NCBI RefSeq assembly: GCF_036669915.1
Contig: NC_089325.1
Coordinates: 9,944,231 to 10,008,230 of the forward strand
Direction of reading: 5' to 3'
From: Pocillopora verrucosa
Lineage: Eukaryota > Cnidaria > Anthozoa > Scleractinia > Pocilloporidae
Length of the DNA stretch: 64,000 nucleotides
The translations under genes and the position numbers were made by a program. The notes under the pieces were generated by a model. The model saw only the letters and a list, made by a program, of their open reading frames with translations, ran no database searches and had not been told where the DNA came from. Numbering within the stretch: position 1 is the stretch's first letter; each line of letters starts with the position of its first letter. Below are positions 6,301-29,490 of this stretch, piece after piece.

Positions 6301-9300
6301 AAAAGAAATGATCCGTTATGCGTTAAAACACCTGAGCTTTGAGCTAAGTTCTCAGGTAAAATACATTGATCAAAAGTAGAACTTGCTAAAAAACAATGAT
6401 AAAAAATCGTGCAATCCTAAAGGAGTAACTTTAGGACTTTTATGAAGCTTCAAAACAGTCGGAATACGTACCAATTCTTAGATTTTGGAAAGAGGAACGT
6501 TCAAGGATATTTAGTTCAATTTACGCGAAACATAGCTGCTTTTTTGTCCTAAAGAACCTAATTCAATATGGATTTTTTGCCTATTTTTGAGAAAAACTTC
6601 AGCTCTAAAGATAATTTAATGACTGAGTCTTAAGACTCACTAAGCTAATAAAATAATAATTTGAATACGTGCTGTTATGGGTGTTCTTCGCACTTAGGAG
6701 TTATCTCAACTTGTGTCATGACCATCTCAGTCTTTCTGTTGTTTTTTTCTGTCATGTTCACATTGTATCATTCCTTGTGGACCTTATGAATTAAAGATAT
6801 GAGCTCTTTTGTTTTTAAGATTTGAGGCCAAGAGAGTTATAATTCGCCAAGGCCACAAAGCGGAAAACTTCTATTTCATTCTGTCTGGGACAGGTAATTA
6901 AGCTTGCTTTGTTAGATCTTTTTAGAATGCTAAAAAGACAAATTTTCTTTGGAAGCCGTCAGCTTCGAGTGGCGCAGCCCACCCAAATGACGGCTGGGAA
7001 GGAGGGTTCGTACAAAAAGAAAACAAACAAACAAACAAACAAACGAATAGAAAAACGATTGAATAAATACTACCCCTCGTTTGATTTGATGGGAGTAAGC
7101 GCGCTGGATCTCTGAGAGGCCTGGGTTCAAACCCTGACCAGGTAACTGTGTTGTGGTCACACACTGTGCCTCTTGTCACCCGCAAGTATAATTGGTTACC
7201 GGTAAACTGGCAAAGAGACTTGATCTAATTCTGGTGGGGAGGGAGAATGGATCAGTAGCATCAATACCTTTATTCGCATTTTCTACTGAACTTGAGAGAA
7301 GCGCTGGATGGATTAAACCCCCCCTCTCCCCTTGGCTCTTACACTGATTGTACCATTATTATGCAGCACTTGTTACGCTATTAGTCAACGATGCGAAGTC
7401 CAGAGAACAGAGAAACACAACAGTTGCAGTTCTGGGGAAAGGAAGCAGCTTTGGGGTACGTAACCAGCCGTAATGAACAAAGAGTGTCCAAAGCCGGATT
7501 GAAATAACATAACCCGCATGTTATCTTGAAATAATTTGACATTTGTGGAGGGTAACACATTGGAAAACAGATATTTATGTTTGGTCTAAAACTGTTGACT
7601 AAAGGAGAAAAGGTTTCTCAAAACAACTTTATTACCGTTAGGTCCTTTCTTGGTTACAGTTTAATTTGTAATAACCAACATATGCTTTTGCATGTGCTTT
7701 ATTAAACTTTAGTGAAGATCTCTAAGTGCAATGCGCAAAACTTGAAAAATTACCCATATTTTCTCTTAATCTTTCAGGAACTGGCCCTGCTTCATCACAA
7801 AACGAGGAGTGCGACAGTTTTATGCAAGGATGAAGTTTCTCTCTTAGCGGTTTGCAGAGAGGTGGGTTCAGTCTCTTCGTGAGTTCAAAAATCTCTTCCA
7901 AAACACAACAATTAATTTCATTAAGGAGCGCTTGATAGTTCTCGTGAGGAAACAACTTGGAGCATCACGGGAACAAGATCACTTTTGACTGATTTTCAAA
8001 TTAAGGTCTGTGACATCATGTTAGGCCGGGTTTGCAGGATAACAACTTTAAAATGTCTAGAGTATATTCAACAAAACAATTTTCAGTTTCCTGAGCTTCT
8101 CTCGCACCATTTATTTTAGGATTTTCGGGATATTTTTATGAGTTACGAGGACGGCAGAGAACCAGAACATATCCGATTTTTAAGGTGAGAATTTTTCTTG
8201 TTAAATGTTCATTCAGTTTCAAGGTATATTAAAAGTTATAACTTAGGGAAAGATGTTTTTCCTCTTGCCACGAGCGTGGGACAAAGAAAACTAATTCTGA
8301 GTCCCCAGGAGGAATCGATGCTCAGACCTTCGGATTTCGCGCTCCGATGCTCTACCACTGAGGCCCGGTTCAGACGCCGTACTTAAGCCGCGCCGAATCG
8401 AATTCAACGATAGGCCGACCTAAATTAGTTAATCCTGGCTGAATTGATTCAAACGCCGAAATTCATTCGGCCGAAATTAATTAATTGAAGAAATTTTTTA
8501 AAATTATTTTTCAAATAAAAACTTGTGAGCAGTACATAGCAACAGATCTTGTCAACTTTGTTTATTATCCGACCGGTTTCGTCTGATCACAACGACTTCA
8601 TCAGGGATTTAACAAAATTCACAAATGAACTACTAATATGCTAGACGTTTACGGTATAAATCACGTTCAAATTGGGGTGTGAACAGCAAAAGCACCCACA
8701 AATGGGAATTGTTACGCAAATCCAGCGTAACAAATTGGAAATGTAACGCAAATCCTGTGTAACAAATTAAGCAATGTTTATTTTTGGGGCTCACGATTTA
8801 TCGTTAAATCGTGAGCCCAAAAAATAAACATTTATTGCAAATTGGGCTTTTACATTTCAAGCAAGTATATTTGGTCGTGCCGAAACACGAACAACACATG
8901 TCACCATCGTCTAGTTTAGCCCGCCAAGCCGCCATTTTTCTCCTTCAAAATAATGCTTTGCGCATGCTCTCGAGTAAAAATAGCATGAAAAGTACATTAA
9001 TATAATTTATGCATTTGGTTCGGCTCAGTTGAAGTACGGCGTCTGAATCAAAGCCGTCTTTTAACCGTTCTTCGCGGCTGAGCCAGGTGGGATTAATTGA
9101 CTGAGCTGATCTAAATTAAATCAGCCGTTCCGAATTGATTTAGACGCCATATTTCTACTTCGCATGAACTTAATTCGTTGAATTTGATTCGGCTCGGCTG
9201 AAGTACGGCGTCTGAACCGGGCCTGAGCCACAAAGACTCTACAGCGAGCGCTCCATAAGGACTCAGAATTTTTCCTTTGTCCCACGCTCGTGACAAGACG

Positions 9301-12300
9301 AAAAACATCTTTCGTTATTTCTTTGCCGAGCTCAAAACTTACAGTCTCTCTTATTTTATTTACAAGCTATAATTTGGTTTGTCAAATCGTTCGCTTTTTC
9401 TTCACAGAGGCGTCCCGTATTTGAAGGATCTTCCACTCGACGACTTAACGACCAAGCATGACGTCTGCATATTTCATTACTTCAGGTAACCAAAATTGAT
9501 GGGAAGTATGAGCAAGTGGGAGAAAGTATAAAAAAAATGCTCAGTTACAGGCGCGCTGAGAAGGTTATCTTCAATGGATCAATTTTTACCGCCGTTTGAG
9601 ATCAATTTTCCTTGGCATTCTTCTCGTGTTCGTAAGCATCGTAGGAAAATTTATTTATTTAGTTGAAATTATTTTTCCTGACAAGATGAAATATTATTCA
9701 TGAGTCGTTATGCTTTGATTTAATTTTTTTTCCCCAATTTATGACAGCTAAAGAAAAGTATAAAGGCATTGCACTTTACTAAATTTTAAGAAATAGTCAA
9801 AAGTCCATAAGTCTGAGGATCACCTGTTGTTGTTCTACGTAAACATAGGGAAATATAATTTACTTTTGATCTGTATTTTTTTTCATAGGCGTGGAGTTGT
9901 TATAGTTAACGAAAGTAAGACGAAATGGATATACGTCGTGAAAACGGTGAGTAATTAGAGGGCTACGTTTCAGAAGAAAAAAACTGTGACGTAAGTAGTC
10001 GCACGTTGCTATAGAGACCGTTCATAGAAAAAAGAACGAAATCAAACCCAAGAATTCATTATCGTGTTTTGTCACTCTGAATTTTTAATCGCTTTTCAAA
10101 ACGTTGTTAAGACAGTTCCGGTCCCATTGTTTTACTGTGTAACGTATTCTGCCTGTATATACACGAATATACCGGCAGTAGTTCAATGATTAATTGTGTT
10201 TCCAGGGATCTTGTCGAGTCCTAACTCATTTGTCCAAAAAGACAGCAAAGTTAAAGCGGTCAGCCGGCAGTCCAGAGAAAACAAACGCAGTCCTTCCCGT
10301 GATACCTGTGGACGAGGCAGACAGGAGGAAAGCGCTGTATACAGGTATCGTCCCGCCTTAGTTTCTGTTTATAAGCACTGTGTATTTTTATAAGATGCAA
10401 AAAAATTGAAATTATTTTTATCACTTTACCACTTTTGTTTTAGCTGCGCAAACTAATTCTGGTTGATATTCACCGTGGAATTTTGTGTCACGTATCTTTT
10501 CCTGAGTTTGTCAGCCGATGAATCTCTACTTTCTATTATATAAATCTTCGAGGATTTCGTCGCATAAGTAATTTGAGCTTGGCTCCAAATGGCCATCTTT
10601 GGAGCTTATGACAAATGGTGTGTTGGGCAAAGACGACGCCCAGATGTGTTATTATTTTTATTGATTTATCTGCTAAAATAATTATCCTTTCGGCAAGCAT
10701 TCGTGCATGTTAATGTGTACAGACAAGTTGTTAACATGGCAACCCTGCAGGGCGACAGCAATCTGATAATCAGATACTAACGCTGAGCACGTTATAAATT
10801 GAAACCGTCTCAAGTTACTGTAGATTAGAATTTAAAATTAAAAAGAAATAAATTCAATTAGAGCTATTGAGTTCGTTTCAATGTCAGTTCTTCTTGCTTC
10901 ATTGCTCGTTGACCACCGATTCTTCTTCGTAGCGTGCCTAGAGAAAAATAAAAGCAGATTAGATGAAAAAGCTAAGGATAATATTCGCTTTTGGCAACCG
11001 TTCGCTTTTTCACCGGCATTGCGTGGATTTTGGTTTTAAACTATCTTTTTGCGGTAAATAAAGAAATTCGGGCGGATTGCATTTCTATGAGAACTCGATC
11101 GCAGATCTTGGATCGAGTTTGATTTGACTATGTAAACGAATTTCTACCGCTTTGTACCATCATTCTCAAGCGTGTTGCTCTTCACGTTATGAATTTGATC
11201 ACAGATTTGTTTCTATTTTGCATTTCAGTCATGAAATTTATGGTTTCTCTTATGTAGACGATAATGATAAATACAGCGAAAAGGAAACAAAGCCAGTATA
11301 TAAAAGACTTGAAAGATATGACTTTTTTTAAGAATAGAAGATCAGAGACGGGTAGTTTAGGTGAGAAAATAAATTCTTACCGTCTGTCAGAAAGGCTCGT
11401 CGTTTTCCTGCGGCCTCGGACGCTGTCGCAGCAATGAGTTGTTGGCGAAGTTTTCTCTTGCAGGCCAATCAGTACTTCTTCTTTGTTTTCCTCTTTTCTG
11501 ACGGTGGTTTTCAGCAAAACGCTCACCTTGATGGCCACGCATCATTTTGGCGACATACAGAAAAGCAGCCACTGCCGTAACGCATACACACAGTGCTATG
11601 ATAACTTGTTCAAAGTCGAGCTTCATTTTGGCCACGATATTGAGGAAGAGCACCATGTTGTAATTTCAACTTCTACCGAAAAGCGATTTTGAAACTATTT
11701 AGCGTGACTAAAGGAACCACGAAGATTACTTCTAGTTATGAAGTGAACGTTATTATATCTGTTCCTTACTGCACATGTCTGCACCTGAAAGTAATTTTAC
11801 TGTACGCGTCACTGGTTGCTGAACTTTCGGTTTCGACCGTATTAATAATTCAATAGGGAGTTTAAGAAACGATGAAGGCGACGCTGTGGACAACGTAGGT
11901 TAAAATATGAACTTATATTTTACCCTACGAATCTCGCACGCTCTAAAGTTATTTAGTTTGTTTCTCGCTGTCAAAACTATTTCGAAACTGAATATGGAAC
12001 ACAGCATCAAATTAGAGAAAGAAATTTAAAAAATTAGCCATCACCGAGTACGTTGTTCAGACAACGCAAGGTTTTGTCATTTTACGTTGTCATTTTGCAG
12101 AGGACGCAAAAAAATTCACAAAGATTTGTAACGCACGTCCACAGCCATTGTTCTGCTCATTAAAACGTTTTGTTAAGTGACATTCCCGTTGCAGTTGCCG
12201 CCATGGTTTTCTTAAATTCCCAGATATGATTTCATAGACCTACATGCACTCCAATACCAGAAAATACGCCTACTACGTAGGCTGATAGAAAACTGAGGCA

Positions 12301-14773
12301 GTTAACCTCGGCGTTATTTCGTCCATTTTTAGCTGCTGGTGATCGTATCCGACCGATCTTATGGTCACCAGAAATTAAACGGCCTAAGACTGAACCTTCC
12401 TTATCCTCAAAGAACAACAATGATCTAACACTGCCTGCCTTGGTTGGTGAACCGGAAAAATTCAGGGTAAGAGATGAACGAGGAATCCATCTTCATTATT
12501 TATTCATGATATGTGGTCCTGTCCAAAACACAGCGGTCGAACGTCGGGCATGTGCGCGGGGATCAATTCTCTCGCCCACGCGCCAATTTCTCGCGCAAAA
12601 TCTCAAAGAAAACATCGCAAACAACCGCTGTCTCGCAAAATAACCTTGAAATAGTTGAAATAACATTAACATTTAACATTTTTTTACTCCTCAGAAAACC
12701 GCTAAAAACGTGACTTGGATGGGACGTCTGAGCGCATTATCTCGAGATAGTGAGTTTATTTAAACGTTTAAGTTGATTTCGAAGGAGTCAACTGGTCATT
12801 CTTCAAAATTTTTCGAGTTCGTCACTTGTCATACTTGTAAATTTTTTCAAATCCAGTCATTGCTGTTGTCCTTCTTTGTTCAGTTTTGCCTGTTTTGTCT
12901 CTGTCTTTCCAATCAAACTTATACTTCGCAGTTCCTTCCAGGCTGAGGCACAAGAAAAAAACATTATTTCATCGTAGAGTCCCCTTATGAACATTTCAGA
13001 GTATTTTAGTGAAAGCCTAAAAAAAAATTAATAATTTTTCCAATGCTTTTTTTATCATGCAGTCAGAGATAGCGAAGAACATCGGCAGAAAATTGAACGC
13101 CTCCACAAACGGATTAGTAATGTGGAAAAACCCCGAAATAAAACTCCTTCGGTGAGTACTAAAAGCTCGTATTTTTCCTCCCATGACAGTCATGACAGTT
13201 TCTAGCCTGGTTAGGGTCAGTGATTGTCACTCCGAATAAAGGGCGTGGCTAAGATAGGGGAGGACTTCAAGTAATCCCGTCCCTCTCTTTGCCAAGAAAA
13301 AAGTGATAGGTCAGAACTCTAAGAGAATTTTCATACTCTCAAGTGTCTGTAACACGTAAGTATCGATATTAGAATCGTCATCATCGCTGTCATGGTAAAT
13401 TTTCTTAACGGCTAAGCCCAGATGGAAGAAGGACAAAAGAAATTCAAGCGTAGGTTTTGGTTCTTATCCGTAAAAAGGAATTCACCCTAAAAAAAACATT
13501 TGTATCATTGTTATTCCAGAATAACAAAAGACAACTTGAGACACCAGAGGCGGACTCAAAAAACGAGCAAGTGGTGGTGCAGATAGAATTACTTAAACCC
13601 AAGGATCAGTTTGTAAGTGATTCTATTATAAACTACAGCAAGAGAAAATCAGACTCAGAGAGTGACTCTCTTACATAGGCCTTACTCTTAGGGGAGTCTT
13701 TCAGGAGGGATCTTGGAATAACTAAGTTTGCTCTAATTTAGGGATAATAATCTCATGCGGCTTCTCCTGGTTGCTGTCCACCCATACAGACAAACGACTC
13801 GCAATGTAAATGCAAAATCATTCCGTGCGTTTAAGACTTTTATTCTTTAAACTAAAACCTTTTAGGTCAACTTATAGCATATAATCTCATCTCTCATCCC
13901 TACCGTGTCCAAAACTCACAACTGTCAAGTTCCATCGCCGTCACAACCTTGTGATAGTTACAATTTTTTGTTTCCCTTCTAGGGTCTTTCGATGCTGCTT
14001 TTCGATAATCCTGCCGTCAAATGCCATTTGGTAAGAACATGTGATAGCAATTTTAGTTGCACCGTGTTAAAATCGTTTTGTTTCACTTCCTACCTTATGG
14101 TATTTCGTTCCTCTTGCCTTTGTATGATATGAGAGACAAACCTCTTCAACTCAATATGGGCCTCTTGGATCCCAAAGCAAATCTGGAGTTATCATGACGG
14201 AGAGGAACTCTTTGGACCCTCCAAAGCCCCTTTAATGGGACTTTGAAGAAGAATACGGGTGATAGCAAATTCCGTCTTAAGCTATGTGTTATGTACTGTG
14301 CATTTTCAGGTTAGCAATGGAGCGGAATGTGTTTTGATAAAGAAAAGTTGGTTCCTGCAGCATGCTACAGAAGCAACATTGCGAAAACTTAGAAATCAGG
14401 TGATTAGCTTACAATTTGTTTCTTGAAGCAGCTTAACGGTAGCAAGTGCATGCTTTGTGATATCCGTGCTTACAACTCTGAAGCCATGTAATAATGCTGT
14501 GTGGGTATGAGCATGGGTAGAAATTTATTTTTCACTTTTTTTTGTGAGATAATTTAGATGTGTTGCAAAAACTGACTCAGGAATTTCCACTCAGAAACAC
14601 ACTGATGTCAGAAATTAACGGTAATGTCATGTGTCGATCAACTTTACTTTTTTCATCAGATTCCTCCATACCCAAGTCAAGCCACTCTCGAACAGAAAAT
14701 GCAAGATCAGGCTAACTGGGACTCGTTTAAAACACAAACAATCAATTCTCTTCTAGATACACTTCATTTATGA
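313..14773 (+). CDS. CNBD2: CNBD2-like cyclic nucleotide-binding domain protein, 3' 19 exons
   Basis: Exons: 313-606, 4431-4501, 5406-5520, 5923-5997, 6181-6272, 6820-6893, 7367-7455, 7778-7861, 8120-8184, 9408-9485, 9889-9946, 10206-10344, 12333-12466, 12695-12749, 13063-13151, 13520-13612, 13983-14030, 14310-14399, 14660-14773 (TGA). All junctions are GT-AG and phases fit, giving 618 codons; the first exon follows an AG acceptor, so the start lies upstream or in an alternative exon. Residues about 40-75 are a Lys/Glu-rich coiled coil. A cyclic-nucleotide-binding fold covers about 185-320, with VIIRQGHKAENFYFILSG and the phosphate-binding cassette FGELALLHHKTRSATV, which keeps the Glu and Arg expected for cAMP/cGMP contact. 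A second, partial CNB-like stretch (FHYFRRGVVIVNESKTKWIY) follows at about 340-380. The order of these blocks matches CNBD2, a cAMP-binding protein linked to sperm function in mammals; the role here is inferred. A candidate poly(A) signal AATAAA lies at 15201. Confidence 0.85.
607..2761. other. Intron/intergenic stretch with no supported gene
   Basis: AT-rich DNA between the first CNBD2-like exon and the 255-codon frame. Short frames occur on both strands, but none has a domain, consistent splice signals or a duplicated counterpart. It may contain a promoter for the frame starting at 2762. Confidence 0.4.
2762..3529 (+). CDS. Possible alternative first exon of the CNBD2-like gene (basic, low-complexity N terminus)
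   Basis: An open frame of 255 codons from ATG 2762 to TAA lies in the intron between the first two CNBD2-like exons, on the same strand. It is hydrophilic and rich in Ser, Glu and Lys, with RxxS-like sites (KGRLSRRASLPP) and an acidic Val/Glu-rich end. No domain is recognised. Two GT donors near the end (GAG|GTAGCG about 3504, GCG|GTAGGT about 3510) leave phase 0, which is also the entry phase of the next CNBD2-like exon at 4431. It could therefore be an alternative N terminus with its own promoter, an internal exon, or a separate intronless gene ending at 3529. A 768-nt frame is long for chance in AT-rich DNA, and the composition is protein-like. Confidence 0.5.
   Translation: MAIMLGGKGDNQLTKECWDETKSRNSFFRSQSESPHANGHEANNETSRENMSNLTGRTQSERESKEITSSGGFPRISSDPYSLVDISLISDEEQGSTKLRKTVSSDAAGLEKLVHIDGVLRKISSKPKQDQKWLPNQVSKKGRLSRRASLPPTYLGNFLSVNNIRKRAISSAADDADDGVISTHIDDRLPSQNSTRKAKNAGRKKVRPIINEEHLVSEKEETEVVLPAVEVDVLSEEVVEEENDGSEVAVGFVAS
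3863..3908. repeat. Near-perfect short palindrome (hairpin)
   Basis: About 21-22 bp arms (starting CACGGAACTTTTTTGAACAT) are followed almost at once by their reverse complement, ending GTTCCGTG, in the intron before the exon at 4431. It could be a tiny foldback or MITE remnant, or a structured intronic RNA. Confidence 0.7.
5592..5652. repeat. GA-rich simple repeat
   Basis: An interrupted (GA)n tract sits in the intron after the exon ending at 5520. Its antisense translation is Ser/Leu-rich and is only a by-product of the repeat. Confidence 0.7.
6945..7300 (+). repeat. Probable tRNA-derived SINE-like repeat
   Basis: The block lies in the intron between the exons ending at 6893 and starting at 7367. 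It contains a good RNA polymerase III B-box (GGGTTCAAACCCTGACC, about 7121), an (AAAC)n tract near 7020 and a non-coding tail. The A-box is less clear, so assignment as a SINE is tentative. Confidence 0.4.
8250..8361 (-). repeat. tRNA-derived SINE, minus orientation, split by a TIR element
   Basis: Read on the minus strand, the block starts with a tRNA-like head (CTCAGTGGTAGAGCATCGGA, A-box), then a B-box-like GATTCC segment, then a tail ending in GAGCGTGGGACAAAG and the run to 8250. The missing 5' end of the head reappears on the far side of the inserted element (about 9224-9248). A second SINE tail in the opposite orientation abuts at 9250-9312. The paralogous intron at 16798-16898 has neither SINE, so insertion probably followed the local duplication. 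Confidence 0.65.
8563..8612 (-). ncRNA. Hammerhead-ribozyme-like motif
   Basis: On the minus strand: CTGATGA (8604-8598), a short stem-loop with GTC/GAC arms, then GAAAC and a minimal stem III ACCGGT (8577-8572), followed by the cleavage triplet GTC. Stem I is formed by ATCC (8608-8605) and GGAT (8570-8567). This is the layout of minimal type I hammerheads known from Penelope-like and related retroelements. An extra A beside stem II makes it slightly irregular. Confidence 0.5.
8774..8829. repeat. 26-bp-arm hairpin inside the composite TIR element
   Basis: The arm TGTTTATTTTTGGGGCTCAC (continuing to GATTTA) is followed after a few bases by its reverse complement with one mismatch. It probably represents the end or a foldback of a nested element. 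Confidence 0.65.
9250..9312 (+). repeat. SINE 3' tail fragment, plus orientation
   Basis: The sequence GGACTCAGAATTTTTCCTTT through CACGCTCGTGACAAGACG is the inverted counterpart of the SINE tail at 8250-8310, so it is a second truncated copy in the opposite direction. Confidence 0.6.
11387..11626 (-). CDS. Single-pass membrane microprotein nested antisense in a CNBD2-like intron
   Basis: A 79-aa frame on the minus strand sits wholly within the intron 10345-12332 of the plus-strand CNBD2-like gene. The start is taken at the ATG in a strong context (GCCAAAATGA) that is shared by all three copies. Residues about 5-28 form one hydrophobic helix (VIIALCVCVTAVAAFLYVA). The tail is basic (RQKRGKQRR) and ends in a conserved block, ENFANNSLLRQRPRPQENDE. 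The segmental duplication carries two relatives (21087-21353 and 22202-22468) with the same layout. No known family is recognised. The hydrophobic helix followed by a basic tail predicts a cytosolic C terminus. Confidence 0.6.
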   Translation of the reverse strand: MKLDFEQVIIALCVCVTAVAAFLYVAKMMRGHQGERFAENHRQKRGKQRRSTDWPARENFANNSLLRQRPRPQENDEPF

Positions 14774-16151
14774 TACATTCCCAGACAGTTTAGAAATATT
14801 TCCAGTTATAATTTCGCCAACTCTTCAGATCAGTGATCACAAGAACCAGCTGGTGGCCACTATTATTGTATGACATTGTTTCGGTCACGAACTGATTTGC
14901 TTCTGTAAGTCTGCTCCACGCAATTTTTTTCCTGAGCGGGATCAAAGCGGACAAACCCGTGCGGGCAGATGGGCCCATGTTGCCCGCTCATGTAGCCAAT
15001 CAGAACACAGGATATTCCCATTTTAAGTAATATGGATACCATCAAACTGCTTGAAACGCGGTAAAAAAATTTGTGACCAAGCGCGAATGGTCAAACACGA
15101 TCATTTAATTCGATAATTGTAAAAGAAAAATTAAGCTTTGATATTTTTCGGTTATGGTAGAAAAAGTGGACTACTTTTCTAAACAAGAAGAATAAGGCGA
15201 AATAAAATGAGCGAAAAACTTCGAGAAGGTTAAATGCATTAGGAAAAAAAAACAGAAGCAAGAGACTTATGATGTGTAGTGCTTTGCATGTCGATTTTAC
15301 AAATAAAAAAAACGTAGTGTATTTATACGAATACTTATTTTTGAGACAAAGAAGGCTTCGTTCTATTTATTTTTGTAATTATTAAAATGTTATAATACCT
15401 ATGCTTATATTTATGTATTTAAAGCAAATAAAAGAACTATTTTTTAAACCCAAAATTTCGGAGAATTTTTCTTATTGGCTCACAAACTCTTTCAATTTTA
15501 AATCATCTGCATCTGCGAACTCCGAGGGTGAAACTAGAAAGGAAACACTTTTCACTTTCAGCCCGACCGACACATCGATTTAATGTGTTTTACATATTAC
15601 GTCTACGATGTTTCTCATGTTAATGAAAATCTTTAGAGAGAATAAAGTCATTTATGATTAAAACCAAACCGCGTAAACAAAAAACCACTTAAGATGAAGT
15701 TGGCGAAGCAATTGTAAACAAAATAAACATTAGTTATTTTTAAAAATCAACGGAAAAGGTTTTTTTTTAGTTGAAAATACAGCAGTTTTTTGTTGTAACT
15801 GGTCGGGTTTAGATTCGAAATCAGTTTGTTCATACCCATCAGCCTGCATGAAACAGTAGCCTCCTTGTACAGAGAAAAAAAAATACGAACTAAGATAAAA
15901 TGTTATTGTTCTGTATCATCATCGTTAACAAAGAAAATTTTATCAAAATTCGTCAAATGGGCATCTGTATTTGTGTTTCACTGGCCGGGTGTTTTACTGT
16001 TAATTCATAATGCGCAATGATTAATGTTACATTTTGCCAACAGTGAAAACAAGACTGGAAGTGAACCGGTCTCTGTTTGAAGTTGCGTCAAGATCATGTA
16101 AGGAAAAAAAACACAATTTTCCCTATTGTAAGGTCTCTAGTTTGAGGTACA
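14774..16151. other. Intergenic region between CNBD2-like gene and orphan first exon
   Basis: This is the 3' flank of the CNBD2-like gene (AATAAA at 15201), then about 0.8 kb also found at 28260-29490 upstream of the secreted-Ig gene, so it probably contains a duplicated copy of that gene's promoter. No further gene is seen. Confidence 0.6.
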
Positions 16152-16218
16152 ATGCGGTCTGGGATAATTTTAAGACTGCCTTTGTTTTTCAAGGTCATTC
16201 TGCTGTTCGTAGTACAAG
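16152..16218 (+). pseudogene. Orphan copy of the signal-peptide exon of the secreted-Ig gene
   Basis: ATG at 16152 opens MRSGIILRLPLFFKVILLFV followed by VQ and a GTAAGC donor at 16219. It differs at two residues from the functional-looking exon at 29491-29557 (MRSETILRL...). No body exons follow: the next sequence is a decayed CNBD2 intron. It was carried by the tandem duplication. It could still be transcribed and spliced into other acceptors. Confidence 0.75.
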
Positions 16219-18452
16219 GTAAGCGGTTAGATTGCCGTTTCAATGAATTTAGAAATGATTAGAAATCGCATCTTAATGCTTTCATAGTTTTCCTGTACAG
16301 AGCTGTCTAAGGAAACTGCCTATTTTTGTCAAAGGAAAACGAATTTTCATATTCCACGACTCTTTTGCGTAACGTCTCTTATTCCAAGTCTCTTTTCCTA
16401 GCATAAGCTTGAATACGCGCAAAATGTTCCTGTGTCTGTTTATTGACTTTTCATTAGCGGAGCAGATGAGACTATTCAAAATGTTATCTGGAAAAAAACA
16501 ATTTATAGAGTTTCACGGCGAGATCAGCCCATTTTTATTCCTCAGATATGCATTCGTAGCTGATTTAGCTACTGTGCTGACGCGGAATTGAAGATTGCTC
16601 TTAATGAAGTACTTGATTAAAGGAGAGGCTGTCATTTGGGCCAATGAACTGATTAAAAATTGATATTACTATTAGCTCAACATCCAGACTCAAAAAGACA
16701 TGCGAAAAAAATACAAAAAAGGTCCATTACATAGGTCTGATTCAATCTTGTAAAAGATACTCGCTATAAAATACGAAAGGATACAAGAAATCTTCAATTA
16801 AAGGTGAGAACATTTTTCTTGTTAAATGTTCATTCAGGTTCAAGATATATTAAGAAGCTGTAGCTTAGTTTGTTAAATCGTTTATTTCTTCTTCACAGAG
16901 GCCTCTCGGATTTGAAGGATCTCCCACTCGACGACTCTGAACGACCAAACATGTGCAGGTCTGCATATTTCATTACTTCAGTTAACCAAAATTGACATAA
17001 AGTATGAGCAAGCGAGAGAAAGCATAAAAAATGCTGAGTTGCTGGCGCGCCGAGAAGGTTATCTTAATTGGATCAAATTTTAACATCGTTTGAGATCAAC
17101 TTTCCTTGGCATTATTCTCCTGTTTGTAAGAATCGTAAGAAAATTTAATTATTTGGTTGAGGATATTTTTTTTCTGACAAGATGAAATATTATTTATGAG
17201 TCGTTTAGCTTTAATTCATTTTTTGGCCAATTTATGAAAGCCAGAGAAAAGAACAAAGGTTTTGCACTTTATTAAATTTTAGGAAATAGTCAGATGTCCT
17301 AAAGCCGGAGGATTACCTGTAGTTGTTCGACGTAAACATAGGGAAATGTAAGTTACTTTTGATTAAATTTTTTAATGGGCGTAGGGTTGTTATAGTTTAT
17401 GAAAGTAAGACCAAATGTATATACGTCGTGAAAACGGTGAGTAGTTAGCGGACTACGTTTCAGAAGAAAAATGCTGTGACGTGAACTAGTCGCACGCTAC
17501 AGGCGTTGAATTCAAAGATTTAGTTTTGCCATGGTGACTGTTCATCAAAAGAAGAAAGAAAGGAATACCGTCTCAAACCCCTAAAAAATTTCCTCCACAA
17601 GGTAGATAAACTGTCCGTTATATTCTCTCTGAACAATCCCATTTTAAAGCTTGACTACAACAGCTACAATCTCATTATTATTCTAAATGGCGTAATAATA
17701 GCCTCCATTTGGCGCGAGAATATACACGGATATTTGTTCCCGAACGTTATCTGTTCCGAGATGCAAACAATTTTCCGAGAGTGAAGCTCGAAGAAAACTG
17801 TAAGAGTCGGGGAACAGATTATGTCCAAGGAAAATATTCGAGCATATTTTTGGGCTAAAAGGAGGTTACTGTGTTTATTATCCTTCAAATTTTCTAAACA
17901 CAGTTGTTAAGTGTTTATGAACAACCTACCGTTTGCTGCGCGTAGCATGATTAATTTTCAGTGTTCTCTGGTACGACTTCATAAACAAACAAAACATGTC
18001 CCTCCTCTGTAACAATAAAAATGGGTAATCACATGGGATATATCCTCGGATATTCCCCACTTTTAAGTGAAGCATATTCAATAATGTGATGAGTTTAGAT
18101 CAATCGCGTGCGAGCAAAAATAATCGAGGGATTATCAACACCTTTAACCTGGTAGTACTTAAGTGATTACTTTTGTTTCCAGGGATCTTGTCGAGTCCTA
18201 ACCCATTTGTCGGAAAAGACAGCAAAATTAAAGGTCCATTTTCAACCTTAATGCAACGCGCGCCGCGACCCAATTTCCTGTAACACGAAATTCCCAGATC
18301 ACTGAAAACCTTCTAAAACCGTCTTTCTCAAGAGCCATCCTGGACATATAGTCAACTGCTTTACGGTAAATACATTCGCCGTTCGTCATTTTATAGTTTC
18401 CTTACAGTATTTTTAGTTTTGTCAGCAAGAATCCGAAGAAATTTTTGTCACG

Positions 18453-19045
18453 CTTGGATCTCTTCGTACTCTGTGAACAGAGTCGGCGAAAAGGACAACG
18501 TTCAAATTTTTCCACTTTCTAGAAGCGCTTGAGGATTCTAGACGAAGATAAAATATTTCCAATAGAAATTGATATTTTTCGAAGAGAAATATGGAAAAAT
18601 ATCAGACTGCCGGACGTTTAATTATTCGAAAACCGTGTCTGGTAGTGTCCGGTTAAAATGTTCTTTGTGTCACGCTTGGATCTCTTCGCACTCTGTGTAC
18701 AAGGTCAGCGAAACGGATAACGTTGGCATTTTTTCACTTTCTAGAAGCGCTTAAGGATTGTAAATGAAGGTAGAATATTTTCCAACGAAAAATTTGTATA
18801 TCTCAAAGAAAAATATGGAGTTTTTTGAGTACCGTGTCCAAGAATAGTTTTAAAGTGTAAAGCTTGGATGGCTTCGTACTCAGTATACAGGGTTAGCGAA
18901 AAACATTAAGTTCGAAATTTTAGGCTGCCTGGAAGCGCTTGAGGGCTGTAAATAAAGGTAAAACATTTTCGTATAAATATTTTTTGGATTTCGAAGAGAA
19001 ATATGGAAAAATATCGGACTGCTAGACGTTTAATTATTTTAAGTT
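18453..19045. repeat. Three diverged tandem repeats inside the TTAA transposon
   Basis: Repeats begin at 18453, 18675 and 18863, each with a CTTGGATCTCTTCG-like start, an AGAAGCGCTT block and an AAGAGAAATATGGA-like block. Subterminal repeats of this kind often serve as transposase binding sites. Confidence 0.65.
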
Positions 19046-19228
19046 AAGTCACTTCATTGGAGGAACGTCAGCGACACTGACAGTTTGCGTTACAATTCTT
19101 ATTTCCTGCTTTACATGGACAGCAACCTCAACCACTCTTTCGAGTGCAAGCTCCTCTCCACGGGCAGAGAACTTCAACTGACCCTTGGTTCTATTTAACA
19201 AGGATGACAAACTTCAATTAAAAAAAAA

Positions 19229-19375
19229 TTATGAATGAATGAAAACGTGGTGGATGAACATTTTCACCTTCTTCGAAATGCTCGCAAGGATTCTCGCGTT
19301 CCTCTTTAGCAACAACCGACCATAAGCATTTACTGCCTCGGAATCTACTAAATCAATGGATTCATCTGATTCCAT
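19229..19375 (-). CDS. Small minus-strand frame in the TTAA transposon, possible first exon of a lost transposase
   Basis: The frame MESDESIDLVDSEAVNAYGR runs on to RNARILASISKK, then a GT donor (AAG|GTGAAA) and a stop after 48 codons. It is the only protein-like frame of the element. It may be the 5' exon of a transposase whose body was deleted, or an accessory exon. Family not recognised. Confidence 0.35.
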   Translation of the reverse strand: MESDESIDLVDSEAVNAYGRLLLKRNARILASISKKVKMFIHHVFIHS

Positions 19376-19799
19376 ACCGGATTAAAACGTATAGAACTGT
19401 TTTAAACAGAATTATTTTGATAAGCTCTTCAAATTCATCAGAGAAAACGCCGAAGGTATTTTGAGACGTGACAAGGTAAAAATAACTGACCAATCAGAGG
19501 CGCTATTTAAACAAAAGCGGTGGTTCAAAACAAAAGCAAACAACCGCGTTGCACCAAGGTTGGAAATGGGCATTTTTTAAAGCGGTCAGTTGGCAGTGCA
19601 GACAAAACAAACGCAGTCATTCCCATGATGCCTGTGGACGAGGCAGACAGGAAGAAAGCGCTGTCTACAGGTATCGTCTCGCCTTAGTTTTCGATAGTTT
19701 CTGTTTATAAATACTGCGTATTGTTTTTTTAAGACGCAAAACGCTTCAATGAGTTGAAGTTATTTTTATCACAATCGTTAATAACTACGTTTACTCATT

Positions 19800-20050
19800 A
19801 ACAATTGGTTCATAAGTCAGCGTGCGTTCATCGAGATATGAAGCACGCGGGAAGTTTGGAGAGCACGAAAGATGCGTAACTTCTTGAGTTTATTTATGAG
19901 TTTTATAACATTTTCGACCCGATGGAAAATTATTTTTCGCGAAGGATTTGTTTGCTGACGTCATGAGCGTGCACAATAGGAATATGAAGCACGCTCGCGC
20001 AATTGAATTTGATTAGACAAATTTACTAGCTGTGTTGCGCGGAGTAACCG
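19800..20050. repeat. Repeat related to the long inverted repeat at 23587
   Basis: The segment GAAGCACGCGGGAAG ... GAGCACGAAAGATG resembles the arm of the inverted repeat at 23587-23662. It is absent from the unit A intron, so it is probably another copy of the same insertion family. Confidence 0.4.
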
Positions 20051-21086
20051 ATGGATTTAGTCAATCGTGGAAATTTATGCGACGCATCTTTTTCTAACTA
20101 TTTGTAGTCTCTAAGGCTTTCGTCGCATTAGTCATTTCAGCTTTGCTCCATATTGGCCATCTTTGGAGCAAATGACAAATGTTGCGACCTGGACGTACAC
20201 ACCCATCCGCTTTGAACCATAAACGTATCGCATATCTCGGTGGTATTTTTAAATAAGTCAGAAGGAACACTTGTTTCCTTGTGGTGCATAAAACCCGCAT
20301 TAAATTGTCGCTCAATACTTCGAACGAACGAAGCAAGAAAAAATGTACATAGACCTATGCTTTAAGACTACACCGAAGCCGGGATAGATTTGTCGCAATT
20401 TTTATTATTTTATCTAAGCAACTCTAGCTTGAGGAATATAATGCAAATTTGTTATCGCGGCGCAAGCCCAGTTTCAGTAAGAAACTGCTGATGTCAACAG
20501 GTCACATAATTCTTTCTCATACTTTAATTACTATATAAAACAATCAAGAAATTAAATCATTTGACCCATGAGATCTACTAGGATTCTCCCTCAAAAACAC
20601 ATATGGGCAAGTCACTTCTTCTTGCTGAACTGAACGTTAACCAGCGAAGCGTTCTAAGGAAAAATAGAAACGGATTACATGAAGAAGCTAACGATTGTAG
20701 GAACCATTCGCTTTGAAAATACTCCGATTAGTGACTTTCGCGTGTATTTTGATTTAACACATTTTTTGGCGGTGAACAATGGTCGCCTTGACATCGTGAA
20801 CGAATTTCAACCGCTGTGTACCATCATACTCAAGCGTGTTGCTCTTGTTTTGGTCAGGTGCTGAATTCAACCAGTTTGTTTTGTTGCATTCCGGCCATGA
20901 ATTTTATGATTTCTCCTATATATGTACGCGAAAGTAATAAATACAACGAAAAGAAAATAAAGCTAGTATATTAAAATGTAAAAGAAATGATTCATTTTAA
21001 ATATAAAATTAGGGAGGTGGTAAAAACAATTTAATTGGTTTTGACCACACGAGCGCGAGAGTAAATTTCTAAATGCCTACTTTTTG

Positions 21087-21353
21087 TCAGAGAGGCTCGT
21101 CGTGCTCCTGAGGCTTCGGACGCTGTCGCAGCGGTGAATTAGCGGTGAAGTTTTCATTTATGGGGCTGTCAGTACCTATCCCTCGTCCTCTTCTTCTGTT
21201 TCTTTGCTGACGGTCGTTGTCAAGTGCTCGCTCTTCTGGGCGATCCTCCCCCAAGCTACGGTACAGGTTGGTATCACAGAAAAAATACATAAATCCAGCC
21301 GCTGTAACGCACAGACCCAATGCTATCGTAGCTAGTTGAAAGCTCAGCTTCAT
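21087..21353 (-). CDS. Membrane microprotein paralogue 2
   Basis: This 88-codon frame starts at the ATG aligned with that of the copy at 11626. It has the same hydrophobic helix (LATIALGLCVTAAGFMYFF), a tail with DRQQRNRRRGRG, and the conserved end ENFTANSPLRQRPKPQEHDE. The frame is intact although the CNBD2 exons around it have decayed. That supports it being a gene in its own right, not an accident of the CNBD2 intron. Confidence 0.6.
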   Translation of the reverse strand: MKLSFQLATIALGLCVTAAGFMYFFCDTNLYRSLGEDRPEERALDNDRQQRNRRRGRGIGTDSPINENFTANSPLRQRPKPQEHDEPL

Positions 21354-22201
21354 TTCGGCCACAATAACAAAAGAGAGCACACTTTGATACACCGAGTTAG
21401 AGAAAATCTGAAACGACTCAGCAGGGGCAAGTGAAGAAACCAAAGAGGCAATGAGGTGTATATGTGATTGGTGCCCTTGACTGCACGTGCTTGCGCGGAC
21501 TAAACTTTAACCCACATGCCAGAAAATACGCTTGCTATATTTGACAATTATTATTTGACAATTTATATTTGATCCATTATGATTGCTTAAACTGAACTTT
21601 AACCCGCATGCCAGAAAATACGCCTGCTATATAGGCTAATAGAAAACTGAGGCAGCTGACCTCAGTGTTATTTCGTCTATTTTTAGCTGCTGGTGATCGT
21701 ATCCGACCGATCTTATGGTCGCCAGAAATTAAACGGCCAAAGACTGAACCTTCCTTTTCCAAGGAAAATATTCGAGCATATTTTTGGGCTAAAGAGAGGT
21801 TACTGTGTTTATTATCCTTCAAATTTTCTAAACACAGTTGTTAAGTTTTTTTTTGAAAAGCCTACCGTTTGCTGCGCGTAGCATGATTCATTTTCAGTGT
21901 TCTCTGGTACGACTTAATACGACTTCTGCGTACCATCATACTCAAGCGTGTTACTCTTATTTTGGTCAGGTGCTGAGGTCAGTCAATTGTTGTGTAGCAT
22001 TCCAGCCGTGAATTTTATGGTTTCTCCAATAAATGTACGCGAAAGTGATAAATACAACAAAAAGAAAACAAAGCCAGTATATCAAAAACGTAAAAGAAAT
22101 GTTTCATTTTTAAATAGAAGATGAGGGAAGGTAGTAAAAATAATTTAATTGGTTTTTGACCACACGTGCGCGAGAAAAAATTCCTAAATGCCTACCGTTT
22201 G

Positions 22202-22468
22202 TTAGAGAGGCTTGTCGTTCTCCTGAGGCTTCGGCCGCTGTCGCAGCGGTGAATTGGCGGTGAAGTTTTCATTTATGGGGCTTTCAGTACCTATCCCTCG
22301 TCCTCTTCTTCTGTTTCTTTACTGACTGTGGTTATCAAATGCTCGCTCTTCTGGTTGATCCTCCTTTAAGCCACGGTACAGGTTGGCATCATAGAAAAAA
22401 TACAGAAATCCAGCCGCTGTAACGGACAGACCCAATGCTATCACAGCTAGTTGAAAACCCAGCTCCAT
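22202..22468 (-). pseudogene. Membrane microprotein paralogue 3, one in-frame stop
   Basis: Colinear with paralogue 2 over 88 codons, including the helix LAVIALGLSVTAAGFLYFF and the end ENFTANSPLRQRPKPQENDK. One codon at 22319-22321 is TAA where paralogue 2 has CAA, truncating the product after the helix and acidic linker. Otherwise there is no frameshift, so the loss is recent, polymorphic or a sequencing error. Confidence 0.65.
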
Positions 22469-23006
22469 TTTGGCCACGATAACAAAAGAGAGCACACTTT
22501 GAAACAATGAGTTAGCGTGACGAGAAGCAGATTTAAAACGACTCAGCAAGAGTAAATGAAGAAACGAAAGATTAACTTTTTTGTTTTTAATGCAGCGTGT
22601 GTGTTGTAAGATTGGTGCCCTTGACTGCGCGTGGTTGCACGGACTGCCCAATCGTCACTCTCACCGGTCTGCCGTTGTCACTTAGAATACTTTCTTAGCC
22701 GTTCTGGAATTTTCGGTCACGACCTTATCAATCCATTACGATCGCTTAGACTAAACTTAAACACACATGCCAGAAAATACGCCTGCTACATGGGCTACTA
22801 GAAAATTGAAGCAGCTAACCTCAGTGTTATTTCGTCTATTTTCAGCTGCTGGTGATCGTATCCGACCGATCTTATGGTCGCCAGAAATTAAACGGCCAAA
22901 GACTGAACCTTCCTTATCCTCAAAGAACAACAATAATTCAACACTGCCGGCCTTGGTCAGTGAACCGGAAAAATTCACAGAATGTCAGTGAACCATTCAA
23001 TCCGGT

Positions 23007-23200
23007 TATGTTGGTATACCCTCTAGGCCATGTACTCTCATATTTTTCTCAGAATTGTGACGGAAATCGTTGGTTACGACATCAAATCCGTCAACTGATG
23101 CAGTGTTTTGCATTGTTATGTTGGTATACCTTCCAACTTACCCTCATATTTTTCTAAGAATTGTGACGGAAACCGTCAACTAATACAATGTTTTGCATTG
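23007..23200. repeat. Two-copy tandem repeat of about 110 bp
   Basis: The block ATGTTGGTATACC ... AATTGTGACGGAAA ... CAGTGTTTTGCATTG occurs at about 23007-23117 and again, shortened, at 23118-23200. Confidence 0.65.
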
Positions 23201-23586
23201 TTTATCTGTTCGATATTTGTATTGGCTCAAGTCCAAAATTCTGTTAAGTGAACATACTGTCTGGCAGCAAAGCCACTCAATAGAATTTCTTTTTACAGTG
23301 TCCCAGTTAAATGGCAACATGACTTAACACACAAAAATCTGTAACGAGCGGGTGAATTGTCAATGTCAATGTGTTATTCTAGGAATCTAATCATCATTGA
23401 AAATATGGATCAGGATCATTGTCATGTTATGCAACTGTTCCAATATCAGAGCATAACTTCATTTCGAATTGTTAGATAATTGTTATACATTATTTTATAA
23501 TTCATGTTGTATGATTAAGTTGATATCACGCTGAAAGTTGAGCGTCTCGGCTTATAGCCGAGATCAGCTTACAGCCGAGTATATTT

Positions 23587-23775
23587 AACAAATAGAGAAG
23601 CCTTGACTGTGCTCTGTTCTGTTATAAAGCACGCAGGAAGCGGCTAGAGCACGAAAGAAGTGTAGGTAGAAACACGAGACGTAGTCGAGTGTTTTTTCCC
23701 ACTTCTTAAGTGCTCTAGCCGCTTCCTAAGTGCTTTATAACAGAACAGAGCACAGTCAAGGCTTCTCTATTTGTT
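23587..23775. repeat. Long inverted repeat, 76-bp arms with 37-bp spacer
   Basis: Arm 23587-23662 (starts AACAAATAGAGAAGCCTTGA) and arm 23700-23775 are reverse complements with about four mismatches. It lies in a 2 kb insertion specific to unit B. It is either a foldback transposon or two head-to-head element ends. Confidence 0.8.
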
Positions 23776-25204
23776 TTATAATAAAGAATCCGTTAAATTA
23801 CCCAAGCATTACTTTCAATTTTCAAAACAAACTTTATTTCCAAAGCGAACAACAATGTCGTCAGCATGCTCTATACTCTCATAAAGCACGCTACAATAAG
23901 CCAATAAGAATCCTTGTTAGAATGGTTCAAATAATTTGATTGGCTGTACAAGACTAAAGCTGTCAAAAGTGTCAAACCATCAAAGTTCAAAAACCATCAA
24001 AGTTCACATTCTACGATAGTTTACAAACTAAAATAGTTCGGCAAGTCGAATTTAACACTTTTGCCTGAAGTTTTTAAGTCTCTAATACAGAATCTTGAAG
24101 TGAAATGTTCGGTGAACTTCAGCCGAATTATGGCTCATAAAAACACGCGAGTTTTTTCACATGACAAGGTAGAAAACAAACTGTTCAAGGCGAGTGTTTT
24201 TTGAATGAACGACAGCCGAATTCACCGGAACATGAAGATCGCTCGTAATGACAGCGCCGCAAAACTCGGCTGAAGTGACTGATATGACTTTCCACTCAAC
24301 GTATCGGAAAGGATATCAGAACAAGCTCTTATTTTTTCACTCGAAGGGTGGCCGATGTAGTTTCTGAGGCTTGCTTTACTGTGATGATCGGAGATCGCCA
24401 TGATGAGCGAGCCGCGATGAACTTAGCATGATATATCATATTCGCTCAGACACCGTCATGGTTAGTACGAATTTTAACAATTATGCCAGTTTGGTTATAT
24501 TTGTCATCATTTCTGTTTTGTTCTGTTTTGTTTTTGAACACTGAACTTTATATACTTTTCGAATGTTAGCTGTGTTTGATTTTTATTACCGTACGTAAGC
24601 TTGCAATTTAACTGAGCGTGAAAATCTTTAAAACTCGGAATGTTTATTGTTTTTCCTTTGAGGATTTTCGTATCTGCTCACGTTTTAATAACGTAAATTA
24701 CGGCGCCCAGTATGTTTACAAACCTTTGTTTGATTCTTCTGTTGCTACTTGCCGGCTCGCTTCAGTTCCGAAATTTCACTTTCAATTATCGGAAAAAAGA
24801 TAAAAAGAAGTCCCGGAAAAGCTCGAACACGGTACAATTGGCAGATGGCGTGACAGCTTTAGCTCAGCTCTATGCTCTATACTCTCATAGAGCACGATCT
24901 TTCAACCAATGACAGCGCGCGTTATATCCGAACTTTATTATAAACGTAAACATTCAATGCTTCTTCACTAATTTAAAGCTTTTAAAACTAAATAAAGATA
25001 CTTGTTACCATCATCTCCTACAGAAAGTAATACGCAATATTCTAGGAACTCAAATCAATCGGTAATTGCCACAATAAATTTTTTTTCACCCCAGAAAAAA
25101 GCGAAAAATGTGACTTTAATGGGACGCCTGAGCGCATTATCTCGAGATGGTGAGTTTATCAAAATGTTTAGGTGGATTTTTAAGGAGTCAGGAGTTTTTC
25201 TCAC

Positions 25205-26160
25205 AATTTTGGCTGAGTCATTCTTCACAATTGGCTGAGTCATTCTTCTCAATTTTGGCTGAGTCATTCTGCACAATTTTTGCTGAGTCATTCTGCACAA
25301 TTTTTGCTGAGTCATTCTTCACAAATTTTTGCTGAGTCATTCTTCTCAATTTTGGCTGAGTCATTCTGCACAATTTTGGCTGAGTCATTCTGCACAATTT
25401 TGGCTGAGTCATTCTTCACAATTTTGGCTGAGTCATTCTTCACAATTTTGGCTGAGTCATTCTTCATAATTTTGGCTGAGTCATTCTGCACAATTTTGGC
25501 TGAGTCATTCTTCACAATTTTGGCTGAGTCATTCTGTACAATTTTGGCTGAGTCATTCTTCACAATTTTGGCTGAGTCATTCTTCATAATTTTGGCTGAG
25601 TCATTCTTCACAATTTTGGCTGAGTCATTCTTCATAATTTTGGCTGAGTCATTCTGTACAATTTTGGCTGAGTCATTCTTCACAATTTTGGCTGAGTCAT
25701 TCTTCATAATTTTGGCTGAGTCATTCTGTACAATTTTGGCTGAGTCATTCTTCACAATTTTGGCTGAGTCATTCTTCATAATTTTGGCTGAGTCATTCTG
25801 CACAATTTTGGCTGAGTCATTCTGCACAATTTTGGCTGAGTCATTCTTCACAATTTTGGCTGAGTCATTCTGTACAATTTTGGCTGAGTCATTCTTCACA
25901 ATTTTGGCTGAGTCATTCTTCATAATTTTGGCTGAGTCATTCTTCACAATTTTGGCTGAGTCATTCTTCATAATTTTGGCTGAGTCATTCTGTACAATTT
26001 TGGCTGAGTCATTCTTCACAATTTTGGCTGAGTCATTCTTCATAATTTTGGCTGAGTCATTCTTCACAATTTTGGCTGAGTCATTCTTCATAATTTTGGC
26101 TGAGTCATTCTTCATAATTTTGGCTGAGTCATTCTTCACAATTTTGGCTGAGTCAGTCAC
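25205..26160. repeat. 24-bp minisatellite, about 40 units, each with a TGAGTCA (AP-1/NF-E2-type) site
   Basis: The unit is GGCTGAGTCATTCTTCACAA plus TTTT. Variants differ at the TTCTTCACA/TTCTGCACA/TTCTGTACA/TTCTTCATA positions; units near the 5' edge read TTTTTGCTGAGTCA. The ten-unit variant pattern of units 7-16 (numbered from about 25336) recurs exactly at units 21-30, so a 336-bp higher-order duplication occurred. The array follows the intact pseudo-exon donor at 25149. In unit A the same intron place (about 12783-12835) has only one degenerate unit. The period is a multiple of three without stops, which creates long spurious frames on both strands. Confidence 0.95.
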
Positions 26161-29100
26161 TTGTTATACTTGTAAATCTTCTTTATATTCAGCCCCTTTT
26201 GTTCCTTTTTTGTTCAACTTCGCCTTTCGTCTAAGAGCCTTCTAAAACCGGTTATGATTTATTGCCTTGGGATGGGGATTTCGTTTGAGTAAGAATAAAA
26301 TTTACCTGTTCCCTCAACCCCTCCAACCCAACCCCCCTTCCCCTACTAAGGCACTGTAATACTCTAATTATCTCTCTCATTAGCATTCGATTTTTCATAA
26401 TGTCCCCTTTGAACTCTACTAGAGACGACTAAGTTCCCTTCCATTCCCCCTGAAAACCATGTGACCCTCCCCCAAATTCTCAACCCCCCGCGATAAAAAA
26501 TGAGTAACATTTCAGAGCATTTTAGTCAGTGAAAGCCTCTACTGCATTCTGCGTTCTATCGAGAAGTAGTTAAACAGGAGAGAACAGGAAGCCAACTTAT
26601 TACCATCTTTTACGGACGTCGCTAAAAAGTAATTTTTTTGTTGCTTTTCATCATGCAGTCAGAGGTAAAGAAAAACATGGGCAGGAAATTGAACGCCTCC
26701 ACAAACGGATTAATAATGTGGAAATCCCCGAAATAAAACTCTTTCGGTGAGTACTGAGAGCTCTTTTTTTTCCTCTCCTGCATGAAATCACGACAGTTAA
26801 TAGCCTGGTTAGGGTTGATGATTGTTACTCCGATGAAAGGGCGTGGCTAAGATAGGGGTGGAGTCCATGTAACCCTCTCCCTCTCTTTCTCAGGAAAAAA
26901 GGTGATAGGTCAGAACGCTAAGGGAATTTTCATACTCTCAAGTGCCTGTAACATATAATTATCGATACCAGCATCATCGTCATCGCTATCATGGTAAATT
27001 CTCTTAACGGCTAAGCCCAGGTTGAAGAAGGACAAAACACATTCTAGCGTAGGTTTTGGTTGTTATCAGTAAAAGGAAATTCACCCTAAAAGAAAAAAAT
27101 GATAGAAGCTTGTATCATTGTTATTCCAAAACAACAAAAGACAATTAGAGACACTAGAGGCGGAGTCAAAGACGGGCAAGTGGTTGTGCAGATAGAATTA
27201 CTTAAACCCAAGGATCAGTTTGTAAGTGATTCTATTATAAACTATAATGAGAAAGAATCAGACTCAAAGAGTGACTCTCTCACATAGGCCAAACTCTAAG
27301 GGGAGTCCTTCTTACGTTATTTTTTTATCATTTCGGAGAGTACTTGGAAAAAGTGATCTTTAGTCGTGGAGTTTGTTCTCAGAGACAATAATCCCACACG
27401 GCTTAGCTTCCCTCGGTTGCTCTCCATCCACACAGAAAATGACTCGCTTTCCACATGTAAAATTATTCCGTGAGTTCAAAGACTTTTAGCCCTATTTAGA
27501 ATTTAACCTTTTAGGTCAAAATGGGACACATAGTATCACTCCCTCGTCCCAAAACTTCTTAACCTCCAAGTATATTTTAAGTATTATTTACAATATTTCA
27601 TTTTTCCTCTTCTAGGGTCTGTCGATGCTACTTTTCGATAATCCTGCCGTCAAATGCCATTTGTTAAGAACATCTGATAGCAATTTTAATTTCTACCTGT
27701 TAGTTTTACTTCCTACTCTGAGGTAGTTCATCTCTTTTGACTCTATATGTAGGAGAGACAAACATCTTTAACTCAAGCTGTACTTCTTGCATCCCAACAC
27801 AAATTTGAAGCTAGAGCTGTTTTTCTCTTTGTCCCTCTAATGTGCACTTTGAAGGAGACTGATGAAAGCGTATTTCGTCTTAAGGTAACTGTTATGTTTT
27901 GTGAATTTTTCAGCTCAGTAATGGAGCGGAATGTGTTCTGATAAAGAAAAGTTGGTTCCCGCAGCATGCTACAGAAGCAACACTGCGAAAACTTAGAAAT
28001 CAAATAATTAGCTTACGATTTGTTTCTTAAAGCAGCTTAATGGTAGCAAGTGCATGCTTTGTGATATCCGTGTTTACAATTCTGAAGCCATGTAATAATG
28101 CTGTGTGGGTATGAGCATGGGCATGGGTAGAAATTTAGTTTTCACTTCTTTTTGCAAGATAATTTAGATGTGTTGCAAAAACTGACTCAGAAACTTCCAA
28201 CCAGAGAGGCAAATTGATACCAGACATTGACGGTAATGTCATGTGTCGGTCAACTTAGTAGGTAGTGTATTTACATGAATACTTATTTTTGAGAAAAAGA
28301 AGGCTTTGTTCTATTTATTTTTGTAATTATTACAATGTTATAATACCTGTGCTTATATTTATGTATTTAGAGCAAATAAAAGAAATATTTTTAATACCAA
28401 AATTTTGGAGAATTTTTCTCATTGGCTTACAAACTCTCTCAATTTTAAAGCATCTGCACCTGCAAACTCCGAGGGTGAACCTAGAAAGGAAACACTTTTC
28501 ACTTTCAGCCTGACCGACACATCAATTTAATGCGTTTTACACATTACGTCTACGATATTTCTTATCTTGATGAAAATCTTTGTTGAGTACTTATTCTGTT
28601 ATTCTTTTTTTCCTTTTTTCTACAAATTTTTCAGTATATCTCCATACAGGATAGCAAGACTCCTCTGTGTTTTTAAGCCTTCCATGCATGGATATTTAAA
28701 ACGAACAATTTGAAATTTTAAATCATTTTTATTTTGTAGTTTCTGTTTGATACTTCTGGCTTCCGCTCGAAGATAATTCTGTTAAACTTGGCGTTACTCG
28801 GGATATTTGAACAATACGTGAGAAATACCTGATACCCATTGTTTTTCGTGATACATATTACTTTCATCACGGTTCGAGCGATATGCCGTACTTTATACTA
28901 TTTCTTATTTTCCAGGCTTAATTCATGACGTTTTCATGACGTTACTCAAACTTTCCAAACAAGTTTAAGCTCGTCAGGCAAGAAGTCATTTATGATTAAA
29001 AGAAAACCGCGTAAACAAAAGGCCGCCAAAGATGAAGTTGGCAGAGCAATTGTAGAACAAAGTAAACATGAGTTATTTTTAAAAATCAACGAAAAAAGGT

Positions 29101-29490
29101 TTTTTTTTAGTTGAAAATACAGCGGTTTTTTTGTTTTAACCGGTCGAGTTTAGATTCGAAATCAGTTTGTTCGTTAACGAGCCTGCATGAAACAGTAGCC
29201 TCCTTTTGCAGAGAAGAAAAACACGAACTAAGATAGAATCTTATTGTTCTGTATCATCATCGTTTACAAAGAAAATTTCATTAAAATTCGTCAAATGCGC
29301 ATCTGTGTTTGTGTTTCACTGGCCGGGTGTTTTATTGTTAATTCATAATGCGCAATGATTCATATTACATTTTGTCAACAGTGGAAACAAGACTGGAAGT
29401 GAACCGGTCTCTGTTTGAAGTTGCGTCAAGAGCATGTAAGGAAAAGAAAAACCAATTTTCCCTATTGTAAGCTCTCTAGTTTGAGGTACA

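Follow-up and report, generated by a model that had tools for sequence, protein, structure and literature searches.

Nested genes, transcribed from inside a single intron of another gene, are common in animals, with 2357 reported from the ctenophore Hormiphora californensis (PMC8527503). Furthermore, coral genomes carry many dark gene families that have been expanded by duplication, according to PMC13044578. The locus described here lies in a 64-kb stretch of the Pocillopora verrucosa genome (hereafter the window; contig NC_089325.1, positions 9,944,231 to 10,008,230). It resembles the nested intronic genes of Metazoa (PMC8527503) in that its predicted transcript would fall within a single intron of a presumed host gene, here on the opposite strand; it is known from sequence alone. 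Like the dark lineage-restricted families of stony corals (PMC13044578), it combines duplication with no match in family libraries, whereas the coral set was drawn from annotated proteins. In architecture alone, the predicted product is comparable to SMIM-type small membrane proteins and secreted propeptide precursors, being shorter than 90 aa with one N-terminal hydrophobic helix, a basic middle and a conserved C-terminus. We consider it somewhat probable that the locus holds an orphan gene, nested and antisense, whose small product would be ER-routed.

Three homologous frames in duplicated DNA

The frames and the duplicated segments that contain them are as follows.

11387-11626, minus strand: copy A coding frame, 79 aa, open, with an N-terminal hydrophobic stretch, RQKR and KQRR basic sites and C-terminal ENFANNSLLRQRPRPQENDEPF (translation, alignments)
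21087-21353, minus strand: copy B1 coding frame, 88 aa, open (translation)
22202-22468, minus strand: copy B2, a pseudogene with TAG at codon 50; donor ACG/GTAGGC kept at 22195, without a second exon of its own (translation, splice scoring, ends of the inner duplication)
11627-11720, minus strand: presumed 5' leader of copy A; ~95 nt can be aligned with B1 and B2, with weak conservation (divergence 0.40; alignments)
9357-16788: unit A of the segmental duplication (block matching)
16848-30134: unit B of the segmental duplication, longer owing to insertions and an inner duplication (block matching)
20814-21760: left copy of the inner duplication, holding B1, 82% identical to 21926-22919
21926-22919: right copy of the inner duplication, holding B2

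The initial annotation had described three homologous minus-strand frames with a common start and C-terminal motif, two of them open, and translations, tblastn and alignments confirmed this. All three share the start ATG, the stop, the N-terminal hydrophobic stretch, a basic middle and a C-terminal block of the form ENF-x-x-N-S-x-LRQRP-x-PQE-x-D-x-P, which is the best-conserved part of the protein. Homology was established by tblastn from copy A within the window (B2, E=4e-15; B1, E=1e-12), and the same search across all 64 kb yielded no fourth copy. The earlier term "triplicated" fits three homologous copies but is overstated, since B2 is broken and without a 3' exon. An in-frame upstream ATG of copy A at 11656 was considered as the true start and dropped, being absent from B1 and B2. 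A lone frame of ~79-88 aa is unremarkable here, since the window contains 74 ORFs of at least 70 aa.

Blocks of unit A match unit B in order at 66 to 92% identity, which identifies a segmental duplication. This event and the inner duplication in unit B indicate that an ancestral frame gave rise to A and B, and B in turn to B1 and B2; the three frames are not three independent events. The inner repeat copied the first exon and upstream sequence and left out the predicted second exon, and B2 is both the nonsense-bearing copy and the copy without a second exon.

Several other features were observed in the window. In unit B, at a place where unit A has short continuous sequence (12790/12795), a tandem array of ~35 or more 24-nt units (25180-26245) can be read through in either direction (321 aa on the plus strand, 282 aa on the minus), with the plus-strand repeat LAESFFTI/LAESFCTI. 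An inverted repeat at 23582-23780, with 81-nt arms, 93% complementarity and a 37-nt loop, is MITE-like or a hairpin, and inverted repeats at 8248-9313 (arms of 43 and 53 nt, ~0.8-1.0 kb apart) look like the terminal repeats of a short transposon. A row of three rhodopsin-family GPCR genes lacks introns (37360-38397, 39633-40757 and 43434-44393; Pfam 7tm_1, E 1e-30 to 4e-34), and an Ig-domain exon is also present, both in keeping with an animal genome. Large direct repeats at 45582-63990, with segments ~9.9 kb and ~6.1 kb apart and mostly 91-99% identity, represent a tandem duplication of recent date with about three units.

Predicted splice anatomy and the presumed host

A minus-strand arrangement of donor, acceptor and AATAAA, new relative to the initial annotation, was predicted for copies A and B1, alongside an exon of the presumed host.

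10938-11380, minus strand: predicted intron of the copy A gene; donor ACG/GTAAGA 6 nt past the stop, acceptor TTTTTCTCTAG/GCA; both score among the best 1% of minus-strand sites, with sites at the same places in B1
10640-10937, minus strand: predicted non-coding second exon of copy A; AATAAA at 10662-10657, 3' end approximate
20654-21080, minus strand: predicted intron of copy B1; donor AAA/GTAGGC (weaker), acceptor TTTTTCCTTAG/AAC (splice scoring, conservation test)
20385-20653, minus strand: predicted non-coding second exon of copy B1; AATAAA at 20406-20401, 3' end approximate
12333-12464, plus strand: presumed host exon (AAGDRIRPILWSPEIKRPKTEPSLSSKNNNDLTLPALVGEPEKF..); acceptor TTTTTAG, donor CAG/GGTAA or nearby; 12254-12464 is 90-92% identical to unit B

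Using splice-site weights that approximate textbook frequencies, each of the three copies was found to have a GT donor 6 nt beyond its stop (11380, 21080 and 22195), scoring 9.0 in A, a weak 5.3 in B1 and 7.5 in B2. The best minus-strand acceptor of both A and B1 lies ~430-440 nt past the donor (scores 6.5 in A and 6.3 in B1, top 1%; the exons would begin at 10937 and 20653), in each case with a pyrimidine tract and a plausible branch site upstream. In BLAST alignments the two acceptors stand exactly opposite each other. The minus-strand donor (11380/21080) and acceptor (10938/20654) are conserved in the right order within a diverged intron, in which the same test detected no conserved plus-strand splice site. 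A version of the splice test built on one long alignment recovered the donor and not the acceptor. AATAAA occurs ~250-275 nt into the predicted second exon of both A and B1, with a chance expectation of ~once per kb. The strongest donor in A falls inside the frame (11526, AAG/GTGAGC, score 11.1); it is absent from B and, if used, would truncate the copy A product. A stop codon 6 nt before a junction is not expected to trigger nonsense-mediated decay. A conserved stretch at 11100-11289 was considered as coding and dropped on account of gaps of 4, 2 and 19 nt. Elsewhere in the otherwise diverged intron, a 70-nt island (10551-10620) is 86% identical to 20114-20184 and has no Rfam match; it is not obviously coding, given a 1-nt gap.

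Exon-like plus-strand segments with splice sites, presumed to belong to the host, flank copy A at ~10206-10345 and ~12333-12464. In unit B a 1.34-kb insertion (18234-19576) interrupts the first of these, and the second is cut off at 21760 beside B1, a longer copy remaining beside B2, so the host-exon damage noted in the initial annotation is real. That annotation had named the host as CNBD2. Hand-joined pieces of the presumed host exons gave no cyclic-nucleotide-binding match, a result from short, hand-picked pieces with which a CNBD2 host is still compatible, and literature searches for coral CNBD2 and for nested coral genes returned nothing specific. The insertion, which is absent from unit A, is flanked by a TTAAAG repeat and contains a 151-nt repeat in three diverged copies (18442-19002). 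The segment 12254-12464, comprising the presumed host exon and ~75 nt of upstream intron, retains 90-92% identity between units next to unalignable intron; gene conversion or a constrained intronic element is possible.

Frame retention and competing explanations

Nei-Gojobori dN/dS was 0.73 for A-B1, 0.78 for A-B2 and 1.02 for B1-B2, near-1 values of the kind that the initial annotation had itself named as refuting its proposal. On these short sequences, with their low power, dN/dS was not significantly below 1, and a codon model with free parameters gained 0.8 lnL over omega=1, kappa=2, so that omega = 1 is not rejected. The frame has a nucleotide divergence (0.29-0.31 for A-B1) no lower than that of the adjacent intron (0.27-0.40), inside the range of the wider surrounding intron (0.27-0.47) and far above that of the adjoining presumed host exon (0.09).

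Copies A and B1 have nevertheless kept their frame beyond neutral expectation, as seen in simulation and in an internal control. In neutral simulations at the observed divergence (~0.31), both copies kept start, frame and stop with a probability of ~0.004 (4.5e-3) without indels and 0.00005-0.0003 with an assumed indel rate, on which the result depends; these retention tests assume an open ancestor and correct only in part for the frame having been picked out of many in the initial annotation. An earlier, stricter estimate of 0.00005 assumed independent gaps all divisible by three. The net A-B1 length difference is 27 nt, placed by MAFFT in gaps of 6, 12 and 9 nt, whereas alternative alignment scoring gives gaps in the variable middle that are not divisible by three. 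Since gap placement there varies with the aligner, the simulation without the gap-multiple assumption is preferred. The internal control traced the 11 ATG frames of unit A with 50 codons or more across to unit B, where the copy A frame alone (1/11) survives from start to stop; several of the ten lost frames sit in blocks 79-92% identical to unit B. By BLOSUM62 score, the coding frame was the best of the six frames in all three comparisons (A-B1, 209 against 173 for the next). The earlier suggestion of independent selection is supported in part, by frame retention, the single surviving frame and the kept minus-strand splice signals and AATAAA; strong purifying selection is not supported, with dN/dS at 0.73-1.02 and omega = 1 unrejected.

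These observations bear on three other explanations. It is unlikely, in our judgement, that the frames descend from a real coding frame that predated the A/B duplication and is now decaying, with A and B1 open only for want of time to break, or with just one of the two still working. Such decay would be in keeping with the dN/dS of 1.02 between B1 and B2 and the nonsense codon in B2, with A-B ratios not significantly below 1, and with the weak donor in B1 and the new strong donor inside the A frame, but with A and B diverged by 0.3, neutral change should by now have destroyed the frame in A, B1 or both. Quite unlikely is a chance open frame in ordinary intron DNA that was carried along by the segmental duplication, with no minus-strand gene present. 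The low neutral probability that two copies keep start, frame and stop (5e-5 to 4.5e-3), the sole survivor among 11 unit-A frames and the conserved, correctly ordered minus-strand donor and acceptor argue against it, even though the window holds many ORFs of like length, divergence resembles that of flanking intron, dN/dS is near 1 and the frame had been selected among many.

A non-coding antisense RNA gene, spliced and polyadenylated, with its promoter, splice sites and some exon sequence conserved, would act on the host through antisense transcription and leave the frame incidental. Conserved splice sites and AATAAA together with weak protein-level selection are consistent with this, and antisense competition by nested genes has been discussed (PMC8527503); the kept start, frame and stop, the best substitution score in the coding frame and the lack of an Rfam match make it very unlikely.

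The nested coding gene draws its support from frame retention, the six-frame score, the 1/11 survivor, ordered minus-strand splice sites, AATAAA, a stop placed where decay would not be expected, the lack of a second exon in the one broken copy, signal scores and the modelled helix. It is weakened by the dN/dS values, intron-like divergence, aligner-dependent gaps, the donor at 11526, the weak B1 donor, the acceptor missed in the long-alignment splice test and the likelihood of AATAAA by chance. On this explanation, a small protein-coding gene would be transcribed from the minus strand inside an intron of a plus-strand host gene, with one coding exon whose stop codon stands 6 nt before the splice donor, followed by one non-coding 3' exon. 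The gene would have been copied along with its host in the segmental duplication, yielding A and B1, after which a local duplication may have taken the first exon and presumed promoter region alone to form B2, and this partial copy would then have acquired its nonsense mutation.

Predicted product and biological meaning

The absence of a described family, as stated in the initial annotation, held in Pfam, NCBIfam, PDB sequences and IMG/VR, the last searched with both proteins. A Pfam search at E up to 10 gave a sub-threshold Ctr match (0.16) as its sole result, Foldseek on a low-confidence AlphaFold2 model was empty, and Rfam gave no match in the window. Because the sequence changes fast, the protein is probably lineage-restricted.

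The first 20-25 residues are hydrophobic and long enough also for a membrane anchor, with maximum 19-residue hydropathy of 2.8 in A and 1.9 in B1. Signal-peptide scores at residues 19-21, from a weight matrix, were 6.5 (A), 3.5 (B1) and 5.2 (B2); the usual cut-off of this matrix is 3.5. The earlier designation as a membrane protein is one possible reading of this stretch, and a cleavable signal peptide fits about equally. AlphaFold2, run from two sequences, gave a fairly confident helix at residues 2-34, a weak second helix at 39-56 and a disordered tail (mean pLDDT 63). Convertase-like basic sites occur in both open copies (RQKR and KQRR in A, RNRR in B1), at positions that are not identical.

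The likeliest product is a small protein that, once translated, would most likely enter the ER by means of the hydrophobic stretch at its N-terminus. It may then stay in the membrane, signal-anchored by a single pass and with a basic, disordered tail, or be cut, as a secreted propeptide, at the signal site and the basic block (RQKR/KQRR or RNRR), which would free a C-terminal peptide of ~29-34 residues. A more elaborate and doubtful version is a lineage-specific, fast-evolving secreted peptide gene, antisense in a host intron and missed by annotation, whose C-terminal peptide would be freed by a convertase and which would have outlived the decay of its host around B1.

Small antisense genes inside introns readily escape notice. 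If real, this locus would be a natural experiment in which a nested gene and its host were duplicated together and one host copy has since been damaged, while the B1 frame is still open. The joint duplication, damaged host copy and open B1 frame would make the independence of a nested gene and its host directly testable.
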